This document shows positions 11,039 to 33,751 of a stretch of DNA of 37,146 nt, one piece after another (within the stretch, counting starts at the first letter, position 1; each line of letters begins with the position of its first letter). The translations under genes were made by a program, and so were the position numbers. The stretch is from a virus. The DNA lies in IMG/VR virus record IMGVR_UViG_3300025120_000196, positions 1-37,146 of that record; one strand, given 5' to 3'. The notes beneath the pieces are model-generated. The model worked only from the letters and a program-made list of their open reading frames with translations, was not told the DNA's origin and did not search any database.

Positions 11039-12915
11039 TTTGCTTCTCCCCAATTGTTTCCTATTGCTACATCGACCTTGGAAGGAACACTCATTTCAAT
11101 CGTGTTTTCCATAATATCGATAACTTTTTTCTCCACTTCAGGATCGCCATTAAGACTAATGGCTAGTTCATCGTGAATTTGAATCATAGGATTGATACCT
11201 TCTTTATCTAAATCAATCATGGCTTTTTTTGTTTGATCAGCCGCTGACCCTTGTATCAACCTATTTAAAGCTTTATACGTCCCTGATCTTTTCAAAGGAG
11301 TATATTCACCATACTCTTCTTTAGCTCTATCCAAAGGATAAGCCTTGTAAGAACCAAATGCTTTTGGCTCCCATAATTCAAAACGACATCTTCGACCTAA
11401 GAAAGTCTTCACTGCACCTTTTTTATTCGCATGATCAGATACTGCATTAGCTAACTGTCGAACAAAAGGGACTCTCTCATTATATTGTTTAATCAAAGAC
11501 TTGCCTTCCTCAGGATCAATACCTAATTGATCAGATAATTTTCCTACACCCATACCATAAAATAGTCCTAAATTTATTGTTTTAGCGCTCTTACGAGGTA
11601 TGTTTCCTATTTCAGCCATGATTGTATGAAAATCTGTTTCTTTATTTTCGTTATAAGCTTTCACAATTTTTTCAGCACCCTCTAGTTTCACGATATTTGC
11701 ATAGTGACTAACGAGTCGTGGCTCTTGTTGAGAGTAGTCAAAAGAACCCCACTTCTCTCCTTCTTCAGGCAAAAACAATCCTCGAACTAAAGAACCGATT
11801 TTAATATCTGATTGAGCATCGTCTTTCGCAGGAATTTGTTGAAGATTAGGGTTAGAATAACTAAATCGACCTGTCAACGTACCACCATTTTCTGTTCGTA
11901 GCTGATTAATATTTGCATGTATTCTTCCATTATGTTGATATTTTTCTATCGTATGAAGGAACGTGGTCCGTGCCTTGTTGAAATTTCTGGCCTGAACAAT
12001 TGCCTTGGGTACAGGATGAGGATGAAACTCTAAAAAGCTTTTTGTAAAACTAGGATTACCTTTATCTGTTTTAGGATATTCAATCTTACATTGATCAAAA
12101 ACAGTGGCAATAGAACGAGCAGCCCATATATCACATTTGAGCTCTGTCTTATCGAAAATAAATTTCATTAAATCGTTTTCTTTTCTAATAAAAGTTTTTT
12201 CAGCTTTCTTTAATTGTTCTAAATCAACTCTTACGCCTTTTTTTCTCATCTTCATAAGAATAGGTATAAGGTCAGTTTCTAAATCAAAAACTGTTTCAAG
12301 ATCTTGTTGAACTATTTCAGGTTTTAATCTATCCCAAAGTTTTAAAGATAGCACTGCATCTTGTTCAGCATATTCTCCTACATATTGAGAAGGTATTTTA
12401 AACATTTCGCTTTTAGGATTAACACCCCATTGTGCTGCTGTTTCATTTAAAAGAAATTCGTTTTTACTTTCAGCTAAATACTCTTTTGATACTGCATTTA
12501 AAGAATAACTAAATTTGTTTTCATTAATTAATGGAGCAGCAATCATTGTATCAATGATACGACCATTCCATTTGACTCCTTCAGCTTCTAACCAACCAAA
12601 GTCATAGGTAGCGTTATGAGCTATCTTTTCTCCTTCGCCTGAAAGCATTTCATTTAGCCAGTCAAACACGACTCGTGGATCGTGATTAAATCCTGTCTCA
12701 TGTCGAATAGGATAGTACCCCTTCCAACCGTCTACAGCTATAGCAACACCAATTATTTCTCCGTCATTAGTAGCCCAACCTGGGCCCTTCTCTATAATGT
12801 TTGGATCCTTAGTCTCTAAATCTATTGCAATTTTATCTGCGTCTTTGATATTTGGAAAATCCATAGGTGGAACCCACTCGGATTTCGGTTTAAACATCCC
12901 TATTTGTTTACTCAT
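11035..12915 (-). CDS. polA: Family A DNA polymerase with 3'-5' exonuclease
   Basis: The phage replicative DNA polymerase, 626 aa. The exonuclease domain (about residues 25-200) shows Exo I Asp32/Glu34 (AIDLETKD), Exo II Asn101...Asp105 (HNATYDFGW) and Exo III Tyr182...Asp186 (YAEQDAV), so proofreading should be active. The polymerase domain has motif A Asp393 (SFDYSQQEPR), the O helix RKSAKTINLGLFYG (441-454) and motif C HDE (581-583). The residue matching E. coli Phe762 is Leu449, a type found in many uncultured marine phages. There is no 5'-3' exonuclease domain, as usual for phage enzymes. ATGA overlaps occur on both sides. Residues NHDPRV (77-82) are encoded by a copy of the GC-rich dispersed repeat. 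Confidence 0.95.
   Translation of the reverse strand: MSKQIGMFKPKSEWVPPMDFPNIKDADKIAIDLETKDPNIIEKGPGWATNDGEIIGVAIAVDGWKGYYPIRHETGFNHDPRVVFDWLNEMLSGEGEKIAHNATYDFGWLEAEGVKWNGRIIDTMIAAPLINENKFSYSLNAVSKEYLAESKNEFLLNETAAQWGVNPKSEMFKIPSQYVGEYAEQDAVLSLKLWDRLKPEIVQQDLETVFDLETDLIPILMKMRKKGVRVDLEQLKKAEKTFIRKENDLMKFIFDKTELKCDIWAARSIATVFDQCKIEYPKTDKGNPSFTKSFLEFHPHPVPKAIVQARNFNKARTTFLHTIEKYQHNGRIHANINQLRTENGGTLTGRFSYSNPNLQQIPAKDDAQSDIKIGSLVRGLFLPEEGEKWGSFDYSQQEPRLVSHYANIVKLEGAEKIVKAYNENKETDFHTIMAEIGNIPRKSAKTINLGLFYGMGVGKLSDQLGIDPEEGKSLIKQYNERVPFVRQLANAVSDHANKKGAVKTFLGRRCRFELWEPKAFGSYKAYPLDRAKEEYGEYTPLKRSGTYKALNRLIQGSAADQTKKAMIDLDKEGINPMIQIHDELAISLNGDPEVEKKVIDIMENTIEMSVPSKVDVAIGNNWGEAK
12670..12687. repeat. 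GC-rich dispersed repeat copy
   Basis: GACTCGTGGATCGTGATT inside the polymerase gene. The 14-base core GACTCGTGGATCGT recurs exactly at 25287-25300. Confidence 0.65.
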
Positions 12916-14516
12916 ATTCTATATGCCTCCCGCGATTGTGGCGTTATTATAAATAAGTTTTCTTTAGCTCTAGAAAAAGCAACATAAAATAATCTATGTT
13001 CGCTAATCGGATTAATACGATATTCTTCGTATGCCATTTTTCCTATATCTAATGAAACAATAACATTGTCTGCTTCACCACCTTTTTGTTGATGAATAGT
13101 AGATAATGTTACTCTTGGTTCTAAGGCTAAGTCTTCACCTCTTGTTTCTAAGTTTTCTAAATACGCTTTTGTTTCTGTATTAATTGTTGTCATTACTTCT
13201 GTCCAAGGCGTTTCAAAGTCAACTGTTAATCCAAAATCATCTTTCAGATCTTTAAAAGATAATTTCTTATCAGGAAAAGCTTTTCTTTGTTCTGCGATAA
13301 GTTTTTTATTACCACGAACTACGTATTCTTTTCCTAAACACTTGTATAAATTTTCGATCAGCCTTATAGGAACTTTATTGTTTTCATTTCTCATCAAATC
13401 TTTCCAAGTAAGAATAGCATTTCTTTCCTTACTTCCAATAGAATATCTGTATTTACTGTCTTTTAATTTAACTCTAAAAAATATATTTTTCTTTCTCATG
13501 ACTTCTTCCATGTCATCACGAATAGTTCTTGTTCTACCCATTATTAACCATGAACCTTGGTTCATATCTAAGTGATACATGCCTCTAATAAACTCAACAG
13601 ATCCATCTCTGTTAGCAGGAGACCATTTAATATCATCATAACCTATGATCTGTTCTTCAACACGATTAACAATTTCCCAGACTTTTCTTGGAACTCTTTT
13701 TGATTTATCCAAAACAATTATATTTTTAGCTTCATCTTTAACTTGTATTGCTTTTGATACGTCTGCATCTGCCCAAGTATAAATAGCCTGATTAGGGTCC
13801 ATGGCGAGGTAACTTTTTTCTGAGTTTCTCCATATTTTTTCTGCCATTTTCCACTGTATCGTAGACATATCTTGAGACTCATCAAAGAAAACAACTTTAA
13901 AAGCCTTATAAAAGCTTCCATTAACATAGTTAGTAATTAAGTCAGTAAAATCTACTTTTGGTCCTTGGTCCTTAACTAAATACCCATTAGTTCCATTTGT
14001 AAATTTTTCATAACCAAAGTTTTTGTAGTCTCTTAATCCCTTATCTATGTACTCTAGTTTGTGCCAAATAATATCTTTTGCAAACATGGCCCAACAATCA
14101 CGTAAAGGTATGTCTCTTCTTTTTGCTTTTTCTATAAGATCAACATATTTGTCGTCATAGTTGTTGAAAAATATGTCATCATCATTATTAACGTTAATAT
14201 TAATCCTAAGTTCATTTGATATATTCCTCCAATCATTATTACTTAGTATGTGCTCTCTCGTAAGACCCATTTGCCTTAATGCGAAAGAGTGTAAGGTACT
14301 AAAATTTTCTAACTGATTTAATGGTACTTTAAATTTTTGAGAGGCTCTTTGTTTAGCCTCATCAACTGCTTTATTAGAAAAAGAAAAAAAAGCTATCTCA
14401 TCTATGTTTATTTCATTAGATAAATATTCTTCTATTTTATCTAAAATAAAAGTTGTCTTACCTGTCCCTGGAGGACCAATAACAACAGTAGGAGTTTTCT
14501 TATCCAATAAACTCAT
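12912..14516 (-). CDS. SF1A (UvrD/Rep-like) DNA helicase
   Basis: A 534-aa ATP-dependent DNA translocase. Motif I is GPPGTGKTTF (from residue 14), motif II DESQDM, motif III-like AMDPNQAIYTWADA, motif V STIHQQKGGEADNV and motif VI LFYVAFSRAKENL, the standard UvrD/PcrA order. It is shorter than bacterial UvrD (about 720 aa), mainly through smaller 1B/2B insertions. No DnaB-type helicase is visible in the window, so this protein may unwind DNA at the phage fork together with the polymerase and the primase encoded in the same operon. It overlaps both neighbours by a few bases (ATGA with polymerase; 17 bp with the ABC/GNAT gene). Confidence 0.9.
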   Translation of the reverse strand: MSLLDKKTPTVVIGPPGTGKTTFILDKIEEYLSNEINIDEIAFFSFSNKAVDEAKQRASQKFKVPLNQLENFSTLHSFALRQMGLTREHILSNNDWRNISNELRININVNNDDDIFFNNYDDKYVDLIEKAKRRDIPLRDCWAMFAKDIIWHKLEYIDKGLRDYKNFGYEKFTNGTNGYLVKDQGPKVDFTDLITNYVNGSFYKAFKVVFFDESQDMSTIQWKMAEKIWRNSEKSYLAMDPNQAIYTWADADVSKAIQVKDEAKNIIVLDKSKRVPRKVWEIVNRVEEQIIGYDDIKWSPANRDGSVEFIRGMYHLDMNQGSWLIMGRTRTIRDDMEEVMRKKNIFFRVKLKDSKYRYSIGSKERNAILTWKDLMRNENNKVPIRLIENLYKCLGKEYVVRGNKKLIAEQRKAFPDKKLSFKDLKDDFGLTVDFETPWTEVMTTINTETKAYLENLETRGEDLALEPRVTLSTIHQQKGGEADNVIVSLDIGKMAYEEYRINPISEHRLFYVAFSRAKENLFIITPQSREAYRI

Positions 14517-15594
14517 GTGCGTAGCAAACCCTTTCTTTATGTTTTTCTCTTAATTCTTGACTATAACCACCAAAATTAGAAGTCTTTTTTCCTGTAGCTA
14601 TTCTATTTAATTCTTTTTCATAATCGTCTTTTCTATTTTGTTTATTATGAGTTGTTGGTCTCCATTTTTCAGGATGAGCTTCTCGATATTCACCGAAACG
14701 AGGATGAGCTGTTTTAGAAAAGAAGCGATGACCGAGGACCGTGAATTGTTTTGCCACTGCCTCAGACAAACGAACGCCTAAGCCTAATCCTTGAAAATCA
14801 GGAAGTATCACTGTCCTGTGTTCCCTCCACGCTTTTTCTTTGATTGTTCCTGAGGGAAAAAAGATAACTGATGAAAATCCGACTGGGGTTCCGTTCCATG
14901 TGGCAACCCAACATCGTGTAGCTGTACTGATGTTTCCTGTGAGATAGTGATGCTCAGCGAAGTATGACCAAATTTTGTGGGAACAAGGAACGACTTCCAA
15001 AACAATCTTGGGTCGCCTAAGAGACCCCCGTGATACCACCTTACTAGAGTTTGTATCAAACACCCAGTCAGGTTGTAACCAGTCAATGATATCATAGTGA
15101 CATGACGCAAAGACAACATTTTTAATATCTTTATTTCGAATAAATTTTTGCAAAGCATTAGAACAAGACTTCGCTACATTACGATCCACCACACTAGTGA
15201 ATTCATCAATAACTGCATTATCTTTTACTCTCCTAGCTAAATCAGATCGAAATCTTTCTCCTGTACTTAAAACGTGATAAGGTCTCATCCAAGAAGGAAT
15301 AGAATTAAATCCAACAGAAGATAATCTTTCTTGCGCTTCTTCTGGTGTATCAAAGTGAGAACAAACAGCTTTGTTTGAGTCCCACTGAATATTTTCTTCT
15401 TCTCCATATTCTTTTAACAAACTTGATTTACCACTTCCTGAAGCTCCAACAATTAAACCAATATTAAATCCTTCTTTTGGTTTTTGAAACTCTGGTAGAG
15501 TAAACTCTGTTTGACCATCAAATTGATAGTCAAACATTCTACTGATCTCATTAGTAATGTTATCAGTTTGTACTTGTGATTTTAGTTTTTTCAA
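14500..15594 (-). CDS. ABC-type ATPase fused to a GNAT acyltransferase domain
   Basis: A 364-aa two-domain protein. Residues ~40-195 form an ABC ATPase with Walker A GASGSGKS (50-57), signature LSTGE (109-113), Walker B NAVIDEF (126-132) and His166 in the H-loop (FASCHYD). Residues ~200-320 form a GNAT fold with HHYLTG, VATWNGTPVGF and acyl-CoA motif A VILPDFQGLGLG (262-273). There are no membrane segments, so it is not a transporter. The start is TTG at 15594 in a TTGA overlap with the primase stop, with AGGAGG upstream inside the primase end. Substrate unknown: acylation of a protein or of DNA (the Mu Mom base-modification enzyme is also GNAT-like) are both possible. Placement between primase and helicase suggests action on DNA or the replisome. 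Confidence 0.8.
   Translation of the reverse strand: MKKLKSQVQTDNITNEISRMFDYQFDGQTEFTLPEFQKPKEGFNIGLIVGASGSGKSSLLKEYGEEENIQWDSNKAVCSHFDTPEEAQERLSSVGFNSIPSWMRPYHVLSTGERFRSDLARRVKDNAVIDEFTSVVDRNVAKSCSNALQKFIRNKDIKNVVFASCHYDIIDWLQPDWVFDTNSSKVVSRGSLRRPKIVLEVVPCSHKIWSYFAEHHYLTGNISTATRCWVATWNGTPVGFSSVIFFPSGTIKEKAWREHRTVILPDFQGLGLGVRLSEAVAKQFTVLGHRFFSKTAHPRFGEYREAHPEKWRPTTHNKQNRKDDYEKELNRIATGKKTSNFGGYSQELREKHKERVCYAHEFIG
14727..14744. repeat. GC-rich dispersed repeat copy
   Basis: GATGACCGAGGACCGTGA inside the GNAT part of the ABC/GNAT gene, antisense to it. Confidence 0.6.
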
Positions 15595-17147
15595 AACGGT
15601 ATTTCCTCCTCTATATTTTCTTTTTTCATATCAGGAACATCTAACTCTACATCTTCTATGTTTAATTGCTTTATTTTCCATAGTCTCATTCTTGTGTTCT
15701 TAACACTCCTGATAGTGTCGTCAGCATTATATTCTTCTTTTAGTCTCATTGTTACCCAAGGTCTTGACTCTTTAAAATCATTTCTTTTTAAATGATCCAT
15801 TAAGTCTTTGAGAGCAAAATAAGTAAATCCTTCTTCAGTGTAAGATTTACCTAAAAATATATCTGCTATTGTTAGAGCCTCGCCTTGATGTAAACAAAAC
15901 TCTTCTAACAATTCTTTAAACTCACCCTTCTTTGTTACTTCTTCAGGTGGATGATCAATAGAAATAGACTCAAATAAATCACTGTATGTTTGATTCCATT
16001 CTGCTGAACTCATATTCATGATGCCTTTATTAAGCTGTTCAAGACAAGCTTGAATAATCTTTTTATGTGTCATCAAATCTTCTGTATTAGCTATCTCTAT
16101 TCTTCTGTCATCGACATTTAAAAAATAACGAGGAGGATCTGACTTATATACTTTTAAATCGGAATAAACTGGATGATCTCTATCACCTTCACTTCCAATA
16201 CCAAATTTTCTTTTTTTACAAAGTCTCTTATTACATAAAGACTCAATAGGAGGTTGAGAACAACGATACATATATTTCGGTGCGCCATTGTTATCGCTTT
16301 GACTTACTTGTTTTATCACTATCAAAACTTCATCAGACTTTAATGGGGGCTCAATATAGTTTCTGTTGTATTCTTCGACTAATTCCTTGTAATTATCAGG
16401 ATCAGCTTTACGATAATAAACGCCTACATTGAACAGAGCGTTATTACGTGATCCGTCAGAAACACCCTGTTCAGTTAGTATTTGTAGGCATGGAGGTCCG
16501 TCTTTAATAACCTCGTTCTTGAAATCGGTTTTAATCGACTTGAGAGCACCAACAACGAGACTATCGTAGTGAGAAAGAAATTCTTCTAAACTTAACGCGT
16601 TACCATTTTGATCTAATCCATATCGACTTCTTCCATGGTAAGGCAAATTAATCCAACTGCCTGTATCTCTTTTTTCTTCTCCCTCTCTTTGATACAGTTC
16701 AATTTGTTTTGGAAAGACTTCAGCTTTTGGATAACCCAAAGCTGTTGCCATTTCACTTAACTTGGTTTGTATATCTTTTGCTGTGACATACGTTTTTGTG
16801 AATAAATATAAATGTGCTCCACCACTTTTTGATAGACACATGATTAAAGGAAACTTTTTTTGTTTTACTATTTTTAGTAAAGCTTTGTGATCAAGAGGAT
16901 AAACATCGATATCAATAACGCCAAACTTACATTTGTCTTCGTCATTAATAGGAACAATACCCATGGCAGGATATTCTCCTTTTAGGTGTTGTTCAAATTT
17001 TTCCAAGGTCGGTGGCTCGTGGACCGTGGTCATTTTAGCCTCTACCTTTAACCCTTCTTGTGGCTCGTTCTTTTTATAAAAGACACCATGAGCCCTCTCA
17101 AGACCTGTAAAGACCTCTTTAAACTTCTTAATTAATTCTAATTCCAT
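15591..17147 (-). CDS. Archaeo-eukaryotic primase (AEP, TOTE type) with PriCT-like region
   Basis: A 518-aa primase. The AEP core shows the metal site Asp79-x-Asp81 (GVIDIDVYP), the SxxxH motif SKSGGAHLYLF (Ser108, His112) and then VFPKQIELYQREG and SWINLPYHGRSRYG, an arrangement typical of TOTE conflict-system primases. Residues ~225-275 (RNNALFNVGVYYRKADPDNY and onward) look like a PriCT helical domain, followed by a Cys cluster CSQPPIESLCNKRLC that could bind zinc. The C-terminus is acidic and ends EEEIPF, like the protein-recruiting tail of bacterial SSB. It probably makes primers for the downstream polymerase. GAGAGG precedes the ATG, just after a nested stem structure at 17161-17288. 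Confidence 0.85.
   Translation of the reverse strand: MELELIKKFKEVFTGLERAHGVFYKKNEPQEGLKVEAKMTTVHEPPTLEKFEQHLKGEYPAMGIVPINDEDKCKFGVIDIDVYPLDHKALLKIVKQKKFPLIMCLSKSGGAHLYLFTKTYVTAKDIQTKLSEMATALGYPKAEVFPKQIELYQREGEEKRDTGSWINLPYHGRSRYGLDQNGNALSLEEFLSHYDSLVVGALKSIKTDFKNEVIKDGPPCLQILTEQGVSDGSRNNALFNVGVYYRKADPDNYKELVEEYNRNYIEPPLKSDEVLIVIKQVSQSDNNGAPKYMYRCSQPPIESLCNKRLCKKRKFGIGSEGDRDHPVYSDLKVYKSDPPRYFLNVDDRRIEIANTEDLMTHKKIIQACLEQLNKGIMNMSSAEWNQTYSDLFESISIDHPPEEVTKKGEFKELLEEFCLHQGEALTIADIFLGKSYTEEGFTYFALKDLMDHLKRNDFKESRPWVTMRLKEEYNADDTIRSVKNTRMRLWKIKQLNIEDVELDVPDMKKENIEEEIPF
17007..17031. repeat. GC-rich dispersed repeat copy
   Basis: Within the primase gene: GGTCGGTGG followed by CTCGTGGACCGTGGTC. 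It encodes part of TTVHEPPT near the primase N-terminus. Confidence 0.6.
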
Positions 17148-17160
17148 ATTAACCTCTCAA

Positions 17161-17288
17161 ATTAATAGCCTCTCCTTTAATTAAGTTGGGGCATGGTCCG
17201 AAAGGAGGCTCGAAAAAACCACACCCCAACCTATTAAGAGTGGGAATAGGAGGATAAGACCACTCTTAACTTTACGCGGGCTATTAAT
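17161..17288 (-). ncRNA. Candidate structured leader RNA (three nested helices) before the primase gene
   Basis: On the minus-strand RNA three helices nest. P1: ATTAATAGCC (17288-17279) with GGCTATTAAT (17170-17161), 10 perfect pairs. P2: TTAAGAGTGG (17269-17260) with CCACTCTTAA (17243-17234), 10 perfect pairs, 16-nt loop. P3: 13 pairs between 17230-17218 and 17097-17085 (+100; i.e. 17197-17185), including two adjacent G-U pairs that would be C-A mismatches on the plus strand. The P3 loop has CTCCTTT, complementary to AAAGGAG just before the 3' strand of P1, so a pseudoknot is possible. P1 starts at the SSB-like stop codon and the primase ribosome binding site follows it within 10 nt. It could be a cis-regulator or a processed small RNA. 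Structure seen; function inferred. Confidence 0.6.
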
Positions 17289-23055: not shown

Positions 23056-23060
23056 ATGAA

Positions 23061-25868: not shown

Positions 25869-26177
25869 TTGCTCTCCTTTTATTTTAAAAAGTTTTGGTC
25901 AGTGGGACTTGTGAAGATTGATAACGAAAGCCAAGGTGATGATCCTTGTAACTTAGGAAATCCTTTTGGTTCACTTTAGACAGTCCCACGTGCCTTGCAG
26001 TTTAAGTTTGCTTTTTTTAAAGTGGTTGTGAAAAACTAGGGGCCACCCCTGAAACCAATCCACTACAATGAAAGGGACCATAGACACGTCTATTGATTGA
26101 GGGATCAAATTCAATCTCAATCGTGCTTAGTTTATACATTGTCTAAGACCCCAAATCGGAGTCTTAGAAAATGTATA
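25869..26177 (-). ncRNA. 308-nt structured gap, candidate noncoding RNA
   Basis: No gene fits here, but perfect stems fill it. From 5' on the minus strand: a long hairpin at 26133-26177 directly after a stop codon (8 + 11 pairs around one mismatch, 5-nt loop, one G-U only on the minus strand); GATTGAG/CTCAATC (26095-26101/26116-26122); ATAGA/TCTAT (26080-26093); an 8-pair helix with one bulge (26021-26028/26056-26064) enclosing AGGGG/CCCCT (26038-26050) followed by five T; and a closing stem GTGGGACT/AGTCCCAC (25902-25909/25982-25989) around GTGAA/TTCAC and CAAGG/CCTTG stems. Such density is unlike the rest of this gene-packed genome. It may be a free RNA, a processed leader or an attenuator. 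Confidence 0.5.
26031..26050 (-). terminator. Possible intrinsic terminator inside the structured gap
   Basis: On the minus strand AGGGG-TGG-CCCCT is followed after AG by TTTTT. The stem is only 5 bp but GC-rich. It may end or attenuate transcripts between the genes at 26178 and 25868. Confidence 0.35.
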
Positions 26178-26639
26178 TTAGAACGAAGGGTCCCAATACT
26201 CGGACCGATGTCCCAAGGTGATACGATTACCGTCTTTTCTAAAACGGTTCGTCTTAGGGTTAAATTCTCTAGGTTCGAGAATAAACCCTCTTTCACCCTC
26301 TGAGGTTTCGATGTCGATAACCTCAGCGTAATGTTTACGCCCCTCAGGGTTAGGCGTAAATTCATAGGTCTGACTTTCTGAAAAGCCATTACTATCGGTA
26401 CGCTTAGCATAGTCCATTTGAACCACAATAAAGCGTCTACCGTTTTTTTTAGTGATAACGTCAACTAACGTACCACTATGGCGATCGGACCAATAATAGA
26501 CCGTAGCACCGTTACCAATGGTTAAAGCGTCAAGCTTAAACCATGAGCGAGAACGTGACCAATTAATCACGCTTCCAAAATGTGTACCTAATTTATTAGG
26601 TAACAACTTTTGGTTTTTGTCGATAATTCTAATTTCCAT
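26178..26639 (-). CDS. Conserved hypothetical phage protein (153 aa)
   Basis: AAAGGAGAGCAAA precedes the ATG at 26639; longer in-frame extensions cross the structured gap and are rejected. The protein has NGATVYYWSDRHSGTLVDV, RRFIVVQMDYAKRTDSNGFS, YEFTPNPEGRKHYAEV and FNPKTNRFRKDGNRITLGHR, a beta-rich pattern found in hypothetical proteins of unrelated phages. Its codons are visibly more GC-rich than those of its neighbours, which suggests separate ancestry. Function unknown. Structured RNA lies on both sides. Confidence 0.65.
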   Translation of the reverse strand: MEIRIIDKNQKLLPNKLGTHFGSVINWSRSRSWFKLDALTIGNGATVYYWSDRHSGTLVDVITKKNGRRFIVVQMDYAKRTDSNGFSESQTYEFTPNPEGRKHYAEVIDIETSEGERGFILEPREFNPKTNRFRKDGNRITLGHRSEYWDPSF

Positions 26640-26835
26640 TTTGCTCTCCTTTGTTAAACGTTGGACACTGAAAGACATTGTTTGACTCAGTATTAAAAAG
26701 GATACTGCGATCCAAAGATCAAACCGTTTTCTTTCTAAGGGTGGTGTCCTCACACCGTTTTGAGTTACTCGTCAGTAGGCTCTTTCAACTCGTGAGCCTA
26801 GACACGGACCGTTTATCGTGGACCGTGTTTCGTGG
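26640..26835 (-). other. 196-nt gap with several stems and a GC-rich repeat
   Basis: No gene is visible. Perfect stems are TAGGCTC/GAGCCTA (26776-26782/26794-26800), GGTGT/ACACC with a CCTC loop (26743-26756), CAGTAT/ATACTG (26688-26693/26702-26707) inside GTTTGA/TCAAAC (26680-26685/26719-26724), and ACACGG/CCGTGT around the dispersed repeat at 26803-26835. It forms the 5' leader of the 153-aa gene. Confidence 0.4.
26803..26835. repeat. GC-rich dispersed repeat copy, palindromic
   Basis: CACGGACCG, TATCGTGGACCGTG and TTCGTGG follow each other in the structured noncoding gap; ACACGG/CCGTGT form a stem. Confidence 0.6.
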
Positions 26836-27159: not shown

Positions 27160-27264
27160 TTAGCCTCCGATTAATATTAAATAAGCAACCCAAATTGCTT
27201 TGAACACAAGTAGACCGATAATAAACCGATCTACTATAATTTCTGCTTTTGGTTTTCTATACAT
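27160..27264 (-). CDS. Tiny single-pass membrane protein (34 aa)
   Basis: MYRKPKAEIIVDR leads into a hydrophobic segment FIIGLLVFKAIWVAYLILIG that spans a membrane, with positive charges at the N-terminus (inside). The ATG overlaps the upstream TAA (TAATG). It could be a membrane-acting accessory factor; a holin role is not supported because a 3-TM holin lies elsewhere. Confidence 0.55.
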   Translation of the reverse strand: MYRKPKAEIIVDRFIIGLLVFKAIWVAYLILIGG

Positions 27265-27509
27265 TAAAGCACCTGTCTCGCTTCGTTGTATAATTTTACA
27301 AATTCATCATGAGGAATTCTTGATTTTTTAGCGCCTCCGTCAATTTGTGTTAAGTGTTTGGCAGTCGTTACGGACCAAACGTTTTCGCTCACGAAAAGTT
27401 TCCCATATCTTTCGAATGCAACTGGAGTTGCATAAGAGTAATAAGTGTTGAAGCCCCATGCGAATTCTTTTCTTAGGCTCTTAGTCGTGTTTAAATATGA
27501 TGTAGTCAT
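27264..27509 (-). CDS. Conserved small phage protein (81 aa)
   Basis: AAAGGAGACAAAAAA precedes the ATG. The core SYATPVAFERYGKLFVSENV, WSVTTAKHLTQIDGG and PHDEFVKLYNEA matches a small family I recall from many phages (short proteins with a WSxTTxKHL motif), of unknown function. Preceded by copy A of the two-hairpin leader. Confidence 0.6.
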   Translation of the reverse strand: MTTSYLNTTKSLRKEFAWGFNTYYSYATPVAFERYGKLFVSENVWSVTTAKHLTQIDGGAKKSRIPHDEFVKLYNEARQVL

Positions 27510-27538: not shown

Positions 27539-27590
27539 GAATATATAAATATTCATGATTACCCAATAACGAGTAATCAAAAGTATTTAT
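27539..27590 (-). repeat. Two-hairpin intergenic RNA module, copy A
   Basis: On the minus strand: AATACTTTT, hairpin 1 GATTACTC/GGGTAATC (27578-27571/27564-27557, one U-G pair, 6-nt loop), ATGAAT junction, hairpin 2 GAATAT/ATATTC (27554-27549/27544-27539). It differs from copies B-D in the stretch after hairpin 2, where AAAGGAG replaces the GAGAG-type site. Confidence 0.7.
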
Positions 27591-27803
27591 TTAAATATCT
27601 ATTTTAAAACCTTTTTTTTCTAAATACTCACGACACCATTTTGGCAATTCATAAATGTCAGAGTAATCAACCACGACATCACCGTCCAACATTACATAAA
27701 ATGAAAAACCGTCATATTGGTCTTCAAATGCAATTGTAGATGATGTAGTGAACACAGTATGGTTGTTTACATCTTGTAGGTTTAAATCGTCTATTTTATT
27801 CAT
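27591..27803 (-). CDS. Small acidic hypothetical protein (70 aa)
   Basis: I choose the ATG at 27803 (MNKIDDLNLQDVNNHTVFTT); an in-frame ATG at 27839 lies inside the leader hairpins and is probably not used. The protein is beta-rich and acidic (FEDQYDGFSFYVMLDGDVVV, DYSDIYELPKWCREYLEKKG). Function unknown. Leader copy B precedes it. Confidence 0.6.
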   Translation of the reverse strand: MNKIDDLNLQDVNNHTVFTTSSTIAFEDQYDGFSFYVMLDGDVVVDYSDIYELPKWCREYLEKKGFKIDI

Positions 27804-27819
27804 TGTTTGCTCTCTTTCT

Positions 27820-27871
27820 GAATATTCATAAATATTCATGATTACTCAAAGCGAGTAATCAAAAGTATTTA
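27820..27871 (-). repeat. Two-hairpin intergenic RNA module, copy B
   Basis: Begins at the stop codon of the upstream gene: TAA ATACTTTT, hairpin 1 GATTACTC-GCTTT-GAGTAATC (27860-27840), ATGAAT junction, hairpin 2 GAATATT-TATG-AATATTC (27837-27820), then AGAAAGAGAGCAAACA and the ATG. It fills the whole gap between the two genes. Confidence 0.75.
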
Positions 27872-28393
27872 TGCTGATTGTTTAGCTTGTTTTTTAGAAA
27901 TAAGATAAATTCTGTTGATAAGAATGTCTTTCCACTTACTGTGCAATTTATGTTGTAAGTCAAAAGCTTCGATTTCCCAAGGTCTTTGTTTATAAGGAAT
28001 TCTTCTCTTTGGACCTAGTTCCTTACCTTCCCAACGTGTGTGAAGTTCGTTATCAGATTTCCACCAACGTTGTTGATATTGCTTTGTAGCAATTTGTTTA
28101 ACGTGCACTAATTCGTGTGCCAAAGTTTTGAAAATATCAGCAGTATGATCAATTATGATCTTGTGATTTTTTTCAGGGCTAGAACCTTTTGCGTTGGCTA
28201 AGTGAACACCTTGGCAATTATCTCCCCACTTTTTTTTGACTGTGGTCTTTCTTACGTGAATTTTGATCTTCAAAGTGTTTTGAAGTCTTTTAGATACTAA
28301 CTCACTAAGAAACAAGTTTGTTGCTTCTGTAAGGTCGTCAACTAATTCCTGATCTCTCTCATTTCTTGGTAGAGATATTTCTAGTTTTTTCAT
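27869..28393 (-). CDS. SprT-like zinc metallopeptidase (174 aa)
   Basis: The zinc site is HELVH (residues 93-97, LAHELVHVKQ) with a likely third ligand Glu140 or Glu142 in RPWEIEAFDLQ, and an upstream strand HKIIIDHTADIF. This is the SprT/gluzincin-type pattern. Host SprT relatives cut DNA-crosslinked proteins; a phage enzyme might clear proteins from DNA or act on a host target, but the substrate cannot be read from the sequence. No signal peptide, so cytoplasmic. It is the largest gene of the accessory operon and has a copy of the hairpin module on each side. Confidence 0.75.
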   Translation of the reverse strand: MKKLEISLPRNERDQELVDDLTEATNLFLSELVSKRLQNTLKIKIHVRKTTVKKKWGDNCQGVHLANAKGSSPEKNHKIIIDHTADIFKTLAHELVHVKQIATKQYQQRWWKSDNELHTRWEGKELGPKRRIPYKQRPWEIEAFDLQHKLHSKWKDILINRIYLISKKQAKQSA

Positions 28394-28409
28394 TGTTTGC
28401 TCTCTTTCT

Positions 28410-28459
28410 GAATAAATAAATATTCATGAATACTCAAAGCGAGTATTCAAAAGTATTTA
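28410..28459 (-). repeat. Two-hairpin intergenic RNA module, copy C
   Basis: Begins at the upstream stop: TAA ATACTTTT, hairpin 1 GAATACTC-GCTTT-GAGTATTC (28448-28428), ATGAAT junction, hairpin 2 GAATA/TATTC (28425-28410), then AGAAAGAGAGCAAACA and ATG. Relative to copy B the third pair of hairpin 1 changes from T-A to A-T on both strands together, a compensatory change. Confidence 0.75.
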
Positions 28460-28681
28460 TACGTCTTCTTGCTCAGCCCAATCAACATTACTAACTGTAA
28501 ATGCGTTCGAATATTTTGGGGTCGGTTGATTTTCATCATCGTCCAACTGATTGTAAATGCGTTCGAATATCTTATCGATACCGAGAAAATCATCTTTAAA
28601 TCTTTTTTTGTCTTCTTGGCTAAGATTATAATAAAATGATGTTGTTTTTACGTTTAAGTCTAATAGTTCTTTTTTAGTCAT
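28457..28681 (-). CDS. Small acidic hypothetical protein (74 aa)
   Basis: The ATG at 28681 (MTKKELLDLNVKTTSFYYNL) follows the GAGAG-type site of leader copy D; a longer ATG start inside hairpin 2 is rejected. Helical middle (SQEDKKRFKDDFLGIDKIFE) and acidic end (NVDWAEQEDV). Function unknown. It is the first clear gene of the leftward accessory operon. Confidence 0.6.
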   Translation of the reverse strand: MTKKELLDLNVKTTSFYYNLSQEDKKRFKDDFLGIDKIFERIYNQLDDDENQPTPKYSNAFTVSNVDWAEQEDV

Positions 28682-28696
28682 GATTGCTCTCTTTCT

Positions 28697-28741
28697 GAAT
28701 GCTTTATGCATTCATGATAAGGCTAACTTAGTAGCCCTATC
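28697..28741 (-). repeat. Two-hairpin intergenic RNA module, copy D
   Basis: Hairpin 1 is GATAGGGCTA/TAGCCTTATC (28741-28732/28725-28716, 10 pairs with one G-U on the minus strand), then ATGAAT, then hairpin 2 GAATGC-ATAAA-GCATTC (28713-28697), followed by AGAAAGAGAGCAATC and ATG. Both stems have wholly different inner sequences from copies A-C while the shape and flanks are kept. Confidence 0.7.
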
Positions 28742-28941
28742 AAAAATACATAATTTGAATTCTGTTTGACTGTTTCCTTATCGGTGTCACCGATTGAGCT
28801 CATTGCTCTGAAGACTTGCTCTCAGCGTCTCAAGATAAGGTTTGGAAGCTTACCCTGATTGGTTCGAGTTATCTACGCACTAAGGGGCAAATATGTAGGG
28901 CCCAACCTTAGCAACCCACCGAGTCCGAAGACCCAAGAAAC
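28742..28941 (-). other. Structured leader region upstream of the accessory operon
   Basis: No convincing gene. Two mutually exclusive helices are visible: ATCGGT/ACCGAT (28780-28785/28789-28794) and CCTTATC/GATAAGG (28776-28782/28834-28840), which share bases. Further stems are CTAAGG+GGC/GCC+CCTTAG (28880-28888/28900-28911) and AAGAA/TTCTT (28935-28939/28946-28950). More GC-rich than the genes around it. It could be a long 5' leader or a free RNA. Confidence 0.4.
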
Positions 28942-29070
28942 TTAATTCTTTGAGTGTTTTAGCACCTTAGACCTGAAGACTAGAATATCGTGGGCATTAG
29001 ACCTACCGTCAAAAGACGCGCTTGGCTTATTGTTTTCTAGTGCAGTTTCTAAAGTATGGTTTGTTGTCAT
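28942..29070 (-). CDS. Doubtful 42-aa ORF at the start of the accessory operon
   Basis: ATG at 29070 with an AAGG 12 bases upstream gives MTTNHTLETALENNKPSASF, then a basic end (VFRSKVLKHSKN). A perfect 7-bp stem ACTAGAA/TTCTAGT (28979-28985/29035-29041) and a CGTC-AAAA-GACG hairpin lie inside it, so the stretch may be RNA rather than coding. No family recognised. Confidence 0.3.
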   Translation of the reverse strand: MTTNHTLETALENNKPSASFDGRSNAHDILVFRSKVLKHSKN

Positions 29071-29175
29071 CTAAGTAAGACCTTAAAGATATTTATGATA
29101 AAGTCAAACATTCTTAGATAAAAAAAGATAAATAATTAAGAAAAAAATGGTCACTTTTGTCGCATCTAAGTGAAG

Positions 29176-29184
29176 TTATCCACA
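29176..29184 (+). promoter_or_regulatory. Perfect DnaA box
   Basis: TTATCCACA matches the strict bacterial DnaA-box consensus. It is followed by a T-rich tract and two GCGTTTTAA repeats. Use of host DnaA by the phage is inferred. Confidence 0.55.
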
Positions 29185-29365
29185 GGCATTTTTTTGCGTT
29201 TTAAGAGCGTTTTAAAAAGGTCCGTGTATGTTTTTATTAGATAATTTATTATATGCTATATGGCTCTTAAAAGAGGTTTAAAGGGTGTTTTCTTTTTGGC
29301 GAATGTTGTTCGATATACCGAATGTAGTGCTAAAGTGAACAAAGTATGAACGTTTCAGGGTTTGA

Positions 29366-29399
29366 GGGTCGTGAGGCGTGGATCGTGGGACGCGGACAG
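29366..29399. repeat. GC-rich dispersed repeat copy
   Basis: GGGTCGTGAGGCGTGGATCG, then TGGGACGCGGACAG, in the candidate origin region just before the A-rich tract. Confidence 0.6.
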
Positions 29400-29452
29400 T
29401 ACTAGAGGTTTTTTGAAAAAATAAAAAAAAAATAAAAAAATATTTTAAAACA

Positions 29453-32306: not shown

Positions 32307-33751
32307 TGATACAACAGTTACTAATGAGAGCAAGTCCCACGGTCCTCGGATCGTTGCTCGTGGGTGCTGTGGGATCGCAACAAGCCAGTCAGATTCAAAA
32401 AGAATTAGCTCTCGGTAATATATCTTTAGATGATGTATACAATCTTATCACAAATTTAGCGGCGTCACCTTCGGTGACAGCATTAAAAGATTTAGAGAAG
32501 TCTAATCAAGTTCCACCGAAAAAGGATGACGACAAAACTCCGACTCCTCCTGAACCTGATCCATTAGACTTGCTGAACCTTATAAATATTGATAGAAAGG
32601 AAGAAGATGAAACAAAGCCTATTACAACTAGCCAAAGCGAAGAGACAAAAGAAACAGTCTCGTCCAACCTCGAATCGCAAACCACGGACCGTGGATCAGA
32701 CATACAACAGCCTGACCAAAGAAGAGAAACAACGATTAGTGGCAACCTACCTTTAGTAAAAGCTTCTCAAGAACAAGGTGTTACTTTTTTTTCAGATATT
32801 TTAGGTGGGGAATTATATGTTCCTAAAGAAAATTATAAACAGTTGTTGGATACTTCTGATGCTTTAGAGGCAACAGAAATATTTGATGAAAAGAGAATAG
32901 GTAATTTTGAAAATCACATTTACACGAGCATACCAGTTTTTAAGGAGGCTCAAATAGCAACTGCTGAGGCAATATCTAAGACTCTTCCTAAAGGAGGAAC
33001 TATTATTGATATTGGAGGAACCGAAGGTGGTTTTGTTAATACAATAGCAGAGCTTAATCCTAGTATTGAAGGTATCGTTTTAGATCCTAATCCCAAGGCT
33101 GAAGAATCTTTTTTACAACAAAAATTACCCAACACAGAATTTATTCTTGAAGCGTTTACAACTAATCCTGAAGAGTTCGGTAAATACGCTTTTACAGAAA
33201 AAGGAATTGATGTAGATTATTTTGATCCTAAAGATATTCCAGATAACTCTGTTGATGCTTTTTCGGAGAAAATGGTATTTCAATTTATTGATAACGAGAG
33301 AGTTTCTAAAATTAAATTGATTGCTGACAAACTAACAGATACTGGCTTTGCTGTCTTTGAAGAAAAATTTTTTACATCGAAACAAGATCCTGTGTGGAAT
33401 GCCAATGAGGCAAAGAAGAATGAATTTAAGTCTCAGTATTATGATCCTGAACAAATGACTGAAAAAGAAGAGATTGTTTTAACAGGTATGAATGAGAGAC
33501 AGGTGACTTCTGAATCTTTTGAAAAGATACTAATGAATAACTTTAATAATGTAGTTCAGTATTGGGATTCAGGAAACTTTGGAGGATATGTTGTATCTGA
33601 CAGCGCAGATACAATTACAAAATTTTTAGATAATATGGTGGATCTTAACAGTGACTTTTCTAATGTGGAAACTCCTAGATTTGTGACACCTAAAATAAGC
33701 AAAAAGAAAAAAGGAGGACCTATATCGATACCAAAAATAGACATGTTGTAA
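32306..33751 (+). CDS. Methyltransferase-domain protein between TerS and portal (481 aa)
   Basis: After a low-complexity N-terminal part (about residues 1-150, with a Pro/Asp/Lys-rich KKDDDKTPTPPEPDPLDLL) comes a class I methyltransferase-like domain: motif I GGTIIDIGGTEGGF, then IEGIVLDPNP, and IPDNSVDAFSEKMVFQFID. The C-terminus is basic (KISKKKKGGPISIPKIDML). The N-terminal region is partly built from GC-rich repeat copies (32334-32364 and 32682-32697). ATG overlaps the TerS stop. Location among packaging genes suggests a virion-associated or DNA-packaging-linked enzyme; the substrate is unknown. Confidence 0.65.
   Translation: MIQQLLMRASPTVLGSLLVGAVGSQQASQIQKELALGNISLDDVYNLITNLAASPSVTALKDLEKSNQVPPKKDDDKTPTPPEPDPLDLLNLINIDRKEEDETKPITTSQSEETKETVSSNLESQTTDRGSDIQQPDQRRETTISGNLPLVKASQEQGVTFFSDILGGELYVPKENYKQLLDTSDALEATEIFDEKRIGNFENHIYTSIPVFKEAQIATAEAISKTLPKGGTIIDIGGTEGGFVNTIAELNPSIEGIVLDPNPKAEESFLQQKLPNTEFILEAFTTNPEEFGKYAFTEKGIDVDYFDPKDIPDNSVDAFSEKMVFQFIDNERVSKIKLIADKLTDTGFAVFEEKFFTSKQDPVWNANEAKKNEFKSQYYDPEQMTEKEEIVLTGMNERQVTSESFEKILMNNFNNVVQYWDSGNFGGYVVSDSADTITKFLDNMVDLNSDFSNVETPRFVTPKISKKKKGGPISIPKIDML
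32334..32364. repeat. GC-rich dispersed repeat copy, palindromic
   Basis: CCCACGGTCCTCGGATCG then TTGCTCGTGGG; the ends CCCACG/CGTGGG are complementary. Near the start of the methyltransferase-domain gene. Confidence 0.6.
32682..32697. repeat. GC-rich dispersed repeat copy, perfect palindrome
   Basis: CCACGGACCGTGG is a perfect palindrome around one central base, followed by ATC. It encodes TTDRGS in the low-complexity part of the methyltransferase-domain protein. Confidence 0.6.

Follow-up and report, generated by a model that had tools for sequence, protein, structure and literature searches.

A phage RNA repeat of about 60 letters that pairs in two ways, with a probable part in RNA processing and in cassette-like gene exchange

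We describe a repeated RNA of about 60 letters, lying between the genes of a small-gene phage operon, that can pair in two ways. Judging from its sequence, it probably takes part in RNA processing and allows genes to be exchanged as cassettes. The DNA analysed is the IMG/VR virus record IMGVR_UViG_3300025120_000196, taken over its whole length of 37,146 nucleotides (the window). The DNA polymerase encoded in the window is closest to those of HTVC023P-type pelagiphages, phage 023Pt_psg01 and a lake phage, with an identity of ~50%, and by this kinship a SAR11 host is likely.

Results

Repeat copies fill successive gaps of a leftward operon

On the minus strand of the window, a leftward operon of small genes has one copy of the repeat in each of four consecutive gaps (Table 1). 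A first-pass annotation had reported four copies in these gaps, with a shared design of hairpin 1, a junction and hairpin 2, with AGAAAGAGAGCAA ahead of the ATG in copies B, C and D, and with stems that include G-U pairs and change in sequence while pairing is kept. We found each copy at its reported position and the design and stem changes as described, and AGAAAGAGAGCAA has exactly three exact copies in the record. The boundaries given for copy D left out its lead at 28742–28753, however, and the count of four omitted a fifth, divergent copy at about 26180–26065. In this fifth copy the loop between strands B and C (defined below) appears to contain a 60-nt insertion: B and the likely C are ~60 nt apart, as compared with 4–6 nt in L022, L143, L175 and L190, and the close relative L022 is compact. 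Annotation of the cassette ORFs gave nothing beyond weak metallopeptidase-like matches.

Table 1. Positions of repeat copies, their parts and the adjoining ORFs in the window
Feature	Position	Strand	Details
Copy D (leader copy)	28697–28753	-	No upstream gene; lead UUAUG, without the UAA of intercistronic copies
Copy D, strand A	28753–28742	-	
Copy D, hairpin 1	28741–28716	-	
Copy D, strand B	28713–28704	-	
Copy D, strand C	28702–28697	-	
Copy D, ribosome-binding segment	28684–28696	-	AGAAAGAGAGCAA; ATG at 28681
74-aa cassette ORF after copy D	28457–28681	-	No PHROG or Pfam match
Copy C	28410–28460	-	Stop codon TAA 28459–28457 within strand A
Copy C, strand A	28460–28449	-	
Copy C, hairpin 1	28448–28428	-	
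Copy C, strand B	28425–28416	-	
Copy C, strand C	28414–28410	-	
Copy C, ribosome-binding segment	28397–28409	-	AGAAAGAGAGCAA; ATG at 28393
174-aa cassette ORF	27869–28393	-	Weak metallopeptidase-like match: PHROG 10499; sub-threshold Peptidase_M91
Copy B	27820–27872	-	Stop codon TAA 27871–27869 within strand A
Copy B, strand A	27872–27861	-	
Copy B, hairpin 1	27860–27840	-	
Copy B, strand B	27837–27828	-	
Copy B, strand C	27826–27820	-	
Copy B, ribosome-binding segment	27807–27819	-	AGAAAGAGAGCAA; ATG at 27803
70-aa cassette ORF	27591–27803	-	No family match
Copy A	27539–27590	-	Stop codon TAA 27593–27591 adjoins strand A on its 5' side; RBS differs, AAAGGAG ahead of ATG 27509
Copy A, strand A	27590–27579	-	
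Copy A, hairpin 1	27578–27557	-	
Copy A, strand B	27554–27545	-	
Copy A, strand C	27544–27539	-	
81-aa ORF after copy A	27264–27509	-	PHROG 5643, unknown function
Fifth, divergent copy	26065–26180	-	Stop codon TAA 26180–26178
Fifth copy, strand A	26177–26170	-	TATACATT
Fifth copy, hairpin 1	about 26168–26143	-	
Fifth copy, strand B	26142–26133	-	ACAATGTATA
Fifth copy, likely strand C	26070–26065	-	CATTGT

Several other features of the window were recorded. The ~650 nt upstream of copy D (28742–29400, minus strand) hold no plausible gene and are 74–92% conserved in relatives; this stretch is probably the operon leader or promoter region and is possibly structured. The 74-aa ORF contains a 28-nt imperfect direct repeat (28490–28517 and 28546–28573, spacing 56 nt). 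Dispersed CACGG..CGTG-rich repeats occur at 26803–26827, which is palindromic, and at 29356–29380, 17004–17028 and 32338–32362, and a strong terminator-like hairpin of 11 bp, six of them G-C, lies at 23056–23030 (minus strand), near the end of the leftward operon.

Two helices compete for the same strand

Each copy begins with a T-rich lead (strand A; ATAAATACTTTT in copies A, B and C, TTATGTATTTTT in copy D) whose complement is the 5' half of hairpin 2 (strand B); lead, hairpin 1 and strand B can therefore fold into one long hairpin of ~20 bp, a two-turn structure with an internal loop and arms of 20–23 nt. Hairpin 2 is strand B paired with strand C, and is located right before the Shine-Dalgarno segment. 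The A:B and B:C helices share strand B and exclude each other. The two-hairpin module of the first-pass annotation is therefore a real state but only half of the structure, the exclusive long hairpin made with the lead being conserved too. Similarly, the lead had been placed from the upstream stop codon on in copies B and C, where the UAA in fact lies inside it, but it also pairs with strand B, and the supposedly constant junction ATGAAT, common to the copies, is mostly the start of hairpin 2.

For all four copies the long hairpin is the predicted fold of minimum energy; z-scores range from −5.3 to −6.8, and none of 200 dinucleotide shuffles folds as well. The two-hairpin alternative lies 0.1–0.2 kcal/mol away in copies A and C (in copy C the two states are predicted at −14.7 and −14.5 kcal/mol), with a larger gap in B and D. 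Across the wider family described below, the predicted energies of the A:B and B:C states are often close, and in some copies the long hairpin is preferred by several kcal/mol. The Shine-Dalgarno segment is unpaired in both predicted folds. Only in the two-hairpin state do two stems directly abut. The internal loop between hairpin 1 and A:B is symmetric and varies in size (1x1, 2x2 or 4x4). At least one copy in the family (L177:550) lacks strand C.

The repeat forms a family in related phage contigs

A pattern scan for ATTCAGAAAGAGAGCAA, a protein query with the 174-aa product and, in IMG/VR, three scans for degenerate patterns together gave several dozen contigs. We built a covariance model, R1, from 17 non-leader copies chosen by sequence patterns, with A:B and hairpin 1 modelled as paired and B:C not. 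A model from non-leader copies was used to align the leader type as well because MAFFT alone misaligned leader copies. R1 gave 131 matches, 104 of them distinct, with E of 5e-5 or better; the distinct matches are the 104 rows of alignment A4. As many as nine copies occur within about 3.1 kb of one operon (L010).

A shape-only scan asked for hairpin 1, A:B and B:C without regard to sequence. Its matches that are followed by an RBS and a start codon come to 118 non-redundant copies in 54 loci, some of these loci on one contig. The 5' and 3' arms of the long hairpin are equally long in 117 of the 118, about two helical turns, and measure 20–23 nt with the exception of two 5' arms and one 3' arm. 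The scan rate was 422 per Mb in module contigs, which had been picked for having modules. Two other phage sets gave 13–37 per Mb, and neither the HTVC023P group nor the genome contigs gave a match; a slightly looser version of the scan gave two matches in 66.5 kb of shuffled sequence.

Neither R1 nor the shape scan found a copy in HTVC023P, HTVC027P, 023Pt_psg01 or bases 1–50000 of DSL-LC04. Pattern scans of bacterial and archaeal genomes gave 19 matches, none module-like by R1 apart from L209, whose single weak match (E 0.0014) we took as chance. The module region of the window had no DNA match among 50,697 phage records, and we found no isolate with modules in the phage collection. In agreement with the earlier statement that no described family has this form, Rfam 15 had no match at the window modules or in L010, L106, L160, L161, L186 and L188; a mir-2068 match overlapping the L161 module was far below the gathering score, and the other Rfam matches listed were also sub-threshold. 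We found nothing in the literature on pelagiphage hairpins, and a survey of HTVC023P-type genomes does not mention intergenic hairpins. In L106 (858–911, downstream), L160, L186 and L188, a candidate hairpin, GGGGCCTGACGGATTGATACGAATAGGAAACAAAGCGAAAAGGCCC, recurs after the module in place of a gene; it too has no Rfam match.

Both helices are maintained by compensatory change

In alignment A4, 14 of the 19 pairs of the long hairpin show double-sided compensatory change (13 of 19 in an earlier, smaller alignment), and 96.4% of its cells are paired, as compared with 82.2% in shuffles; the R1 matches lean towards A:B and hairpin 1 pairing because R1 modelled those pairs. Sliding the partner strand by 1–3 columns as a control lowered pairing to 38–49%. 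For B:C, which R1 left unpaired, all 495 cells are paired, two of the five pairs change on both sides and three never vary. At the sixth position of B all three strands covary, as G-C-G (43 copies), A-T-A (38), G-T-A (10), A-T-T (7) and G-C-A (1), the G-T-A copies corresponding to a G-U intermediate.

The GAAT/ATTC core of B:C, otherwise invariant, is swapped for complementary pairs in divergent subtypes: CCAATAC/GTATTGG (L161, L162, L168, L171 and L178) and CAATAAC/GTTATTG (L168:5188), both first seen as weak R1 matches, ACAATGT/ACATTGT (L022 and L175) and CTTAGG/CCTAAG (L143). In copies found only by R1 or the shape scan the pairing is partly selected, since the search models required those helices, and divergent copies from the pairing-demanding scan are the weaker evidence for the same reason. 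Invariant U-A, U.G and U.U positions mark the border of hairpin 1 and B, and strand A, reverse-complemented B and C have a common core, AAATATTY. G-U combinations occur in 11 paired columns and A-C in three, two of which are a helix end and a tolerated C.A position.

On the evidence of the alignments, both the A:B and the B:C helix have been maintained in evolution. The covariation and the G-U bias point to an element that acts as RNA of the sense strand. The first-pass annotation had suggested a repeated cis-acting RNA and proposed a covariance-model search of related phage contigs; that search did find further copies with strong covariation, and the G-U bias is towards the transcribed strand.

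The repeat spans the interval from stop codon to start codon

Among the 85 copies with an upstream gene, the upstream stop codon falls between −9 and +3 of the first base of strand A in 83 and at or inside strand A in 63, and it is UAA in 84. With the stop placed at A, the repeat spans the distance from one gene's stop codon to the next gene's start codon. Of the 33 copies that have no ORF upstream, nearly all belong to the leader type, with a lead, UUAUGUAUU, that lacks UAA. At the other end, strand C mostly ends 13–16 nt ahead of the start codon. The ribosome-binding segment varies in the family: AGAAAGAGAGCAA, correctly noted ahead of the ATG in copies B, C and D, gives way in many relatives to AGAAAAGGAGCAA or another Shine-Dalgarno sequence. 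We found no terminator-like site at the window modules. A scan limited to sigma-70-type promoters, from which host promoters may differ, found none at copies A and C; copy D has one hexamer pair of the kind expected by chance, and a weak pair starts at the end of copy B.

Genes are exchanged at the repeats

The stop-to-start repeat also marks the boundaries of gene exchange, a feature that had gone unnoticed in the first-pass annotation. In L005, the match to the window runs to the start codon after module D and resumes with base 1 of module C; between the two, another ORF takes the place of the window's 74-aa ORF. In L007 and L008 the 74-aa ORF is absent, and homology jumps from module D to the part of module C that comprises strand C and the RBS. 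In L032 the order of the 174-aa gene and the 74-aa gene family is the reverse of that in the window, and ORF families reappear behind different modules in varying orders. Based on the breaks at modules and the reordering, we conclude that genes are exchanged, lost and reshuffled as module-ORF units. The homology breakpoints lie at the modules themselves in these comparisons; recombination would be the mechanism.

Relatives without the module carry a different folded spacer

Relatives that lack the module (G012, G013 and G010, that is L133–L140, and L210–L236) have another start-associated two-hairpin repeat, GTGTCTRTRGC-n-GGAGGCYAY, laid out as a variable stem, GTGTCT, RTRGC-loop-GGAGGCYAY and the start codon; nine copies each were found in G012 and G013. 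Over 87 distinct copies, one varying stem pair is A-T in 49, G-C in 36 and G-T in 2, and another is A-T in 55, G-C in 25, G-T in 6 and A-C in 1. An upstream stem of at least 7 bp is present in 72 of the 87, as compared with 76 of 400 random windows. This sister repeat resembles the module in its variable upstream stem, constant link, covarying second hairpin, following start codon and many copies per genome, but differs in sequence and in having the Shine-Dalgarno GGAG in or at the loop of hairpin 2. The shape scan found no A:B-type alternative in sister-repeat phages. Start-associated folded spacers are a recurrent habit of the lineage and not one family. As these phages have an unrelated repeat at a comparable position, it seems that one marine phage lineage has evolved or replaced such spacers more than once. 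Separately, in L052 (HTVC023P) positions 12887–17235 contain small ORFs, each behind a promoter-like TTGAC..ATGGGATAT and an AACTAACAAA..GAG segment; some of these spacers have a strong stem, making a third, PeSL-like kind of repeated spacer.

Discussion

The nearest known kinds of element are the PeSLs of T4-type phages, the SAS/ESAS of cluster K mycobacteriophages and the RNase III sites of T7, and none fits all features. PeSLs are promoter-terminator composites that serve T4-type phages as mobile regulatory cassettes (Arbiol 2010; Comeau 2014; both cited in PMC4503421). The modules resemble them as repeated intergenic stem-loop elements of early regions linked to small-gene shuffling, but differ in having no consistent promoter (by our sigma-70-type scan) or intrinsic terminator, in that two of their helices compete and in that a stop codon is embedded in them. 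SAS/ESAS are repeats at the translation starts of many non-structural genes; the SAS is a 13-mer resembling an RBS, its consensus is lineage-specific, and in about half of the cases imperfect inverted repeats of 17 bp lie upstream (PMC3203893). Like SAS, the module has an RBS-like repeat (AGAAAGAGAGCAA or AGAAAAGGAGCAA) directly ahead of the ATG. By contrast, the 13-mer GGGATAGGAGCCC is not in the modules, whose sequence differs on inspection of the copies, and overlap with the stop codon is not described as a rule for SAS/ESAS; according to the ESAS authors, the changes seen in those inverted repeats give no support to pairing as RNA (PMC3203893), whereas module pairing is kept by compensatory change. 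A precedent for processing is T7 R1.1, an RNase III substrate of 60 nt that lies between cistrons and has an internal loop, and the module resembles it in its length, intercistronic position, two-turn duplex and internal loop (PMC6121014). The R1.1 loop is asymmetric (4/5 nt) whereas the module loop is symmetric, and R1.1 as described has no third strand competing for B and no cassette behaviour (PMC6121014).

We favour, tentatively and at slightly less than even odds, a combined reading in which the A:B hairpin is an RNase III-like processing site, freed B refolds with C, and the repeats aid cassette exchange. The repeat would be a cis-acting RNA family of an early phage operon, located on its sense transcript between the stop codon and the next RBS. 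The long A:B hairpin would be an intercistronic site cut near the internal loop where hairpin 1 borders B, probably by the host's RNase III. The upstream mRNA would then end with its stop codon followed by hairpin 1 as a protecting 3' stem, and freed B would refold with C into a stem at the new 5' end of the downstream mRNA, before the RBS. A cut followed by refolding would explain why B needs two partners, A and C. Upstream translation could also tip the balance between A:B and B:C, since a ribosome that halts at the UAA in A would open A:B. The repeats would supply the homology for gain, loss and reshuffling of cassettes, because each gene carries a whole unit. We found no phage-encoded RNase III in six phage records searched, so a host enzyme must be assumed; an alphaproteobacterial RNase III, that of Sinorhizobium, reportedly requires longer duplexes than E. 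coli RNase III does (PMC6121014).

The main rival is switching coupled to the ribosome through the stop codon in A, without RNA cleavage: a terminating ribosome would melt A:B and let B:C form, changing the next initiation, and A:B would re-form when upstream translation is absent. The stop codon in or beside strand A in nearly all intercistronic copies and its absence from leader copies, the conservation of two helices that are near-isoenergetic in many copies, and the spacing of strand C from the start codon all agree with such a bistable switch. We nevertheless consider it rather unlikely, given that leader copies keep both helices though they have no upstream gene; moreover, an effect on initiation is not obvious because the Shine-Dalgarno segment is unpaired in either predicted fold. 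A phage or host RNA-binding protein that co-regulates the module genes, through translation or mRNA stability, would account for many copies of one shape per operon, and could contact the invariant positions at the border of hairpin 1 and B. Hairpin 1 and both outer helices vary freely in sequence among subtypes, however, so recognition would have to be by shape, and we regard a protein-binding site as improbable.

It is less probable still that the repeats are kept for recombination only, with a structure that is incidental or a DNA-level recombination site. The homology breaks in L005, L007/L008 and L032 and the varying order of ORF families would be expected of such boundaries, but homologous recombination needs no pair of covarying helices, and the stems diverge among copies with pairing retained. 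HK022 put is a ~70-nt nascent phage RNA with two stem-loops (PMC9378689), to which the two abutting stems of the two-hairpin state and the copy in the leader can be compared. A similar antitermination element acting on RNA polymerase is nonetheless very doubtful: put is present in two copies per genome downstream of early promoters, with no embedded stop codon or A:B alternative described (PMC9378689), and works once near a promoter over kilobases, whereas here there is a copy at every gene, and A:B and the embedded stop codon would be left unexplained. We give equally little credence to palindromic sites bound by a DNA-binding protein. The core common to A, reverse-complemented B and C is what half-sites would share, but an operator alone does not explain compensatory change in most stem pairs, the excess of G-U over A-C columns, or a fixed stop-to-start location in gene orientation; on this point the first-pass annotation's preference for an RNA role stands.

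Overall, the original observation is confirmed and its interpretation partly supported; as far as sequence goes, a processing site, a stabiliser, a protein-binding leader and a translational operator are all candidate roles. It is possible, though we would not expect it, that the repeat belongs to a new class of RNA, extending from stop to start with two maintained and exclusive helices, that excises protected cistron mRNAs (or is toggled by ribosomes) and makes genes into plug-in cassettes.

Phage early regions hold many tiny exchangeable genes, which raises the question of how these are gained, lost and kept in expression. In these phages the sequence itself shows the unit of exchange, a gene between structured RNAs that supply one gene's stop and the next gene's start region. 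That two competing helices have been kept over large sequence change suggests that each of the two shapes matters, so that a mechanism of switching, or of processing and refolding, can be put to a direct test.
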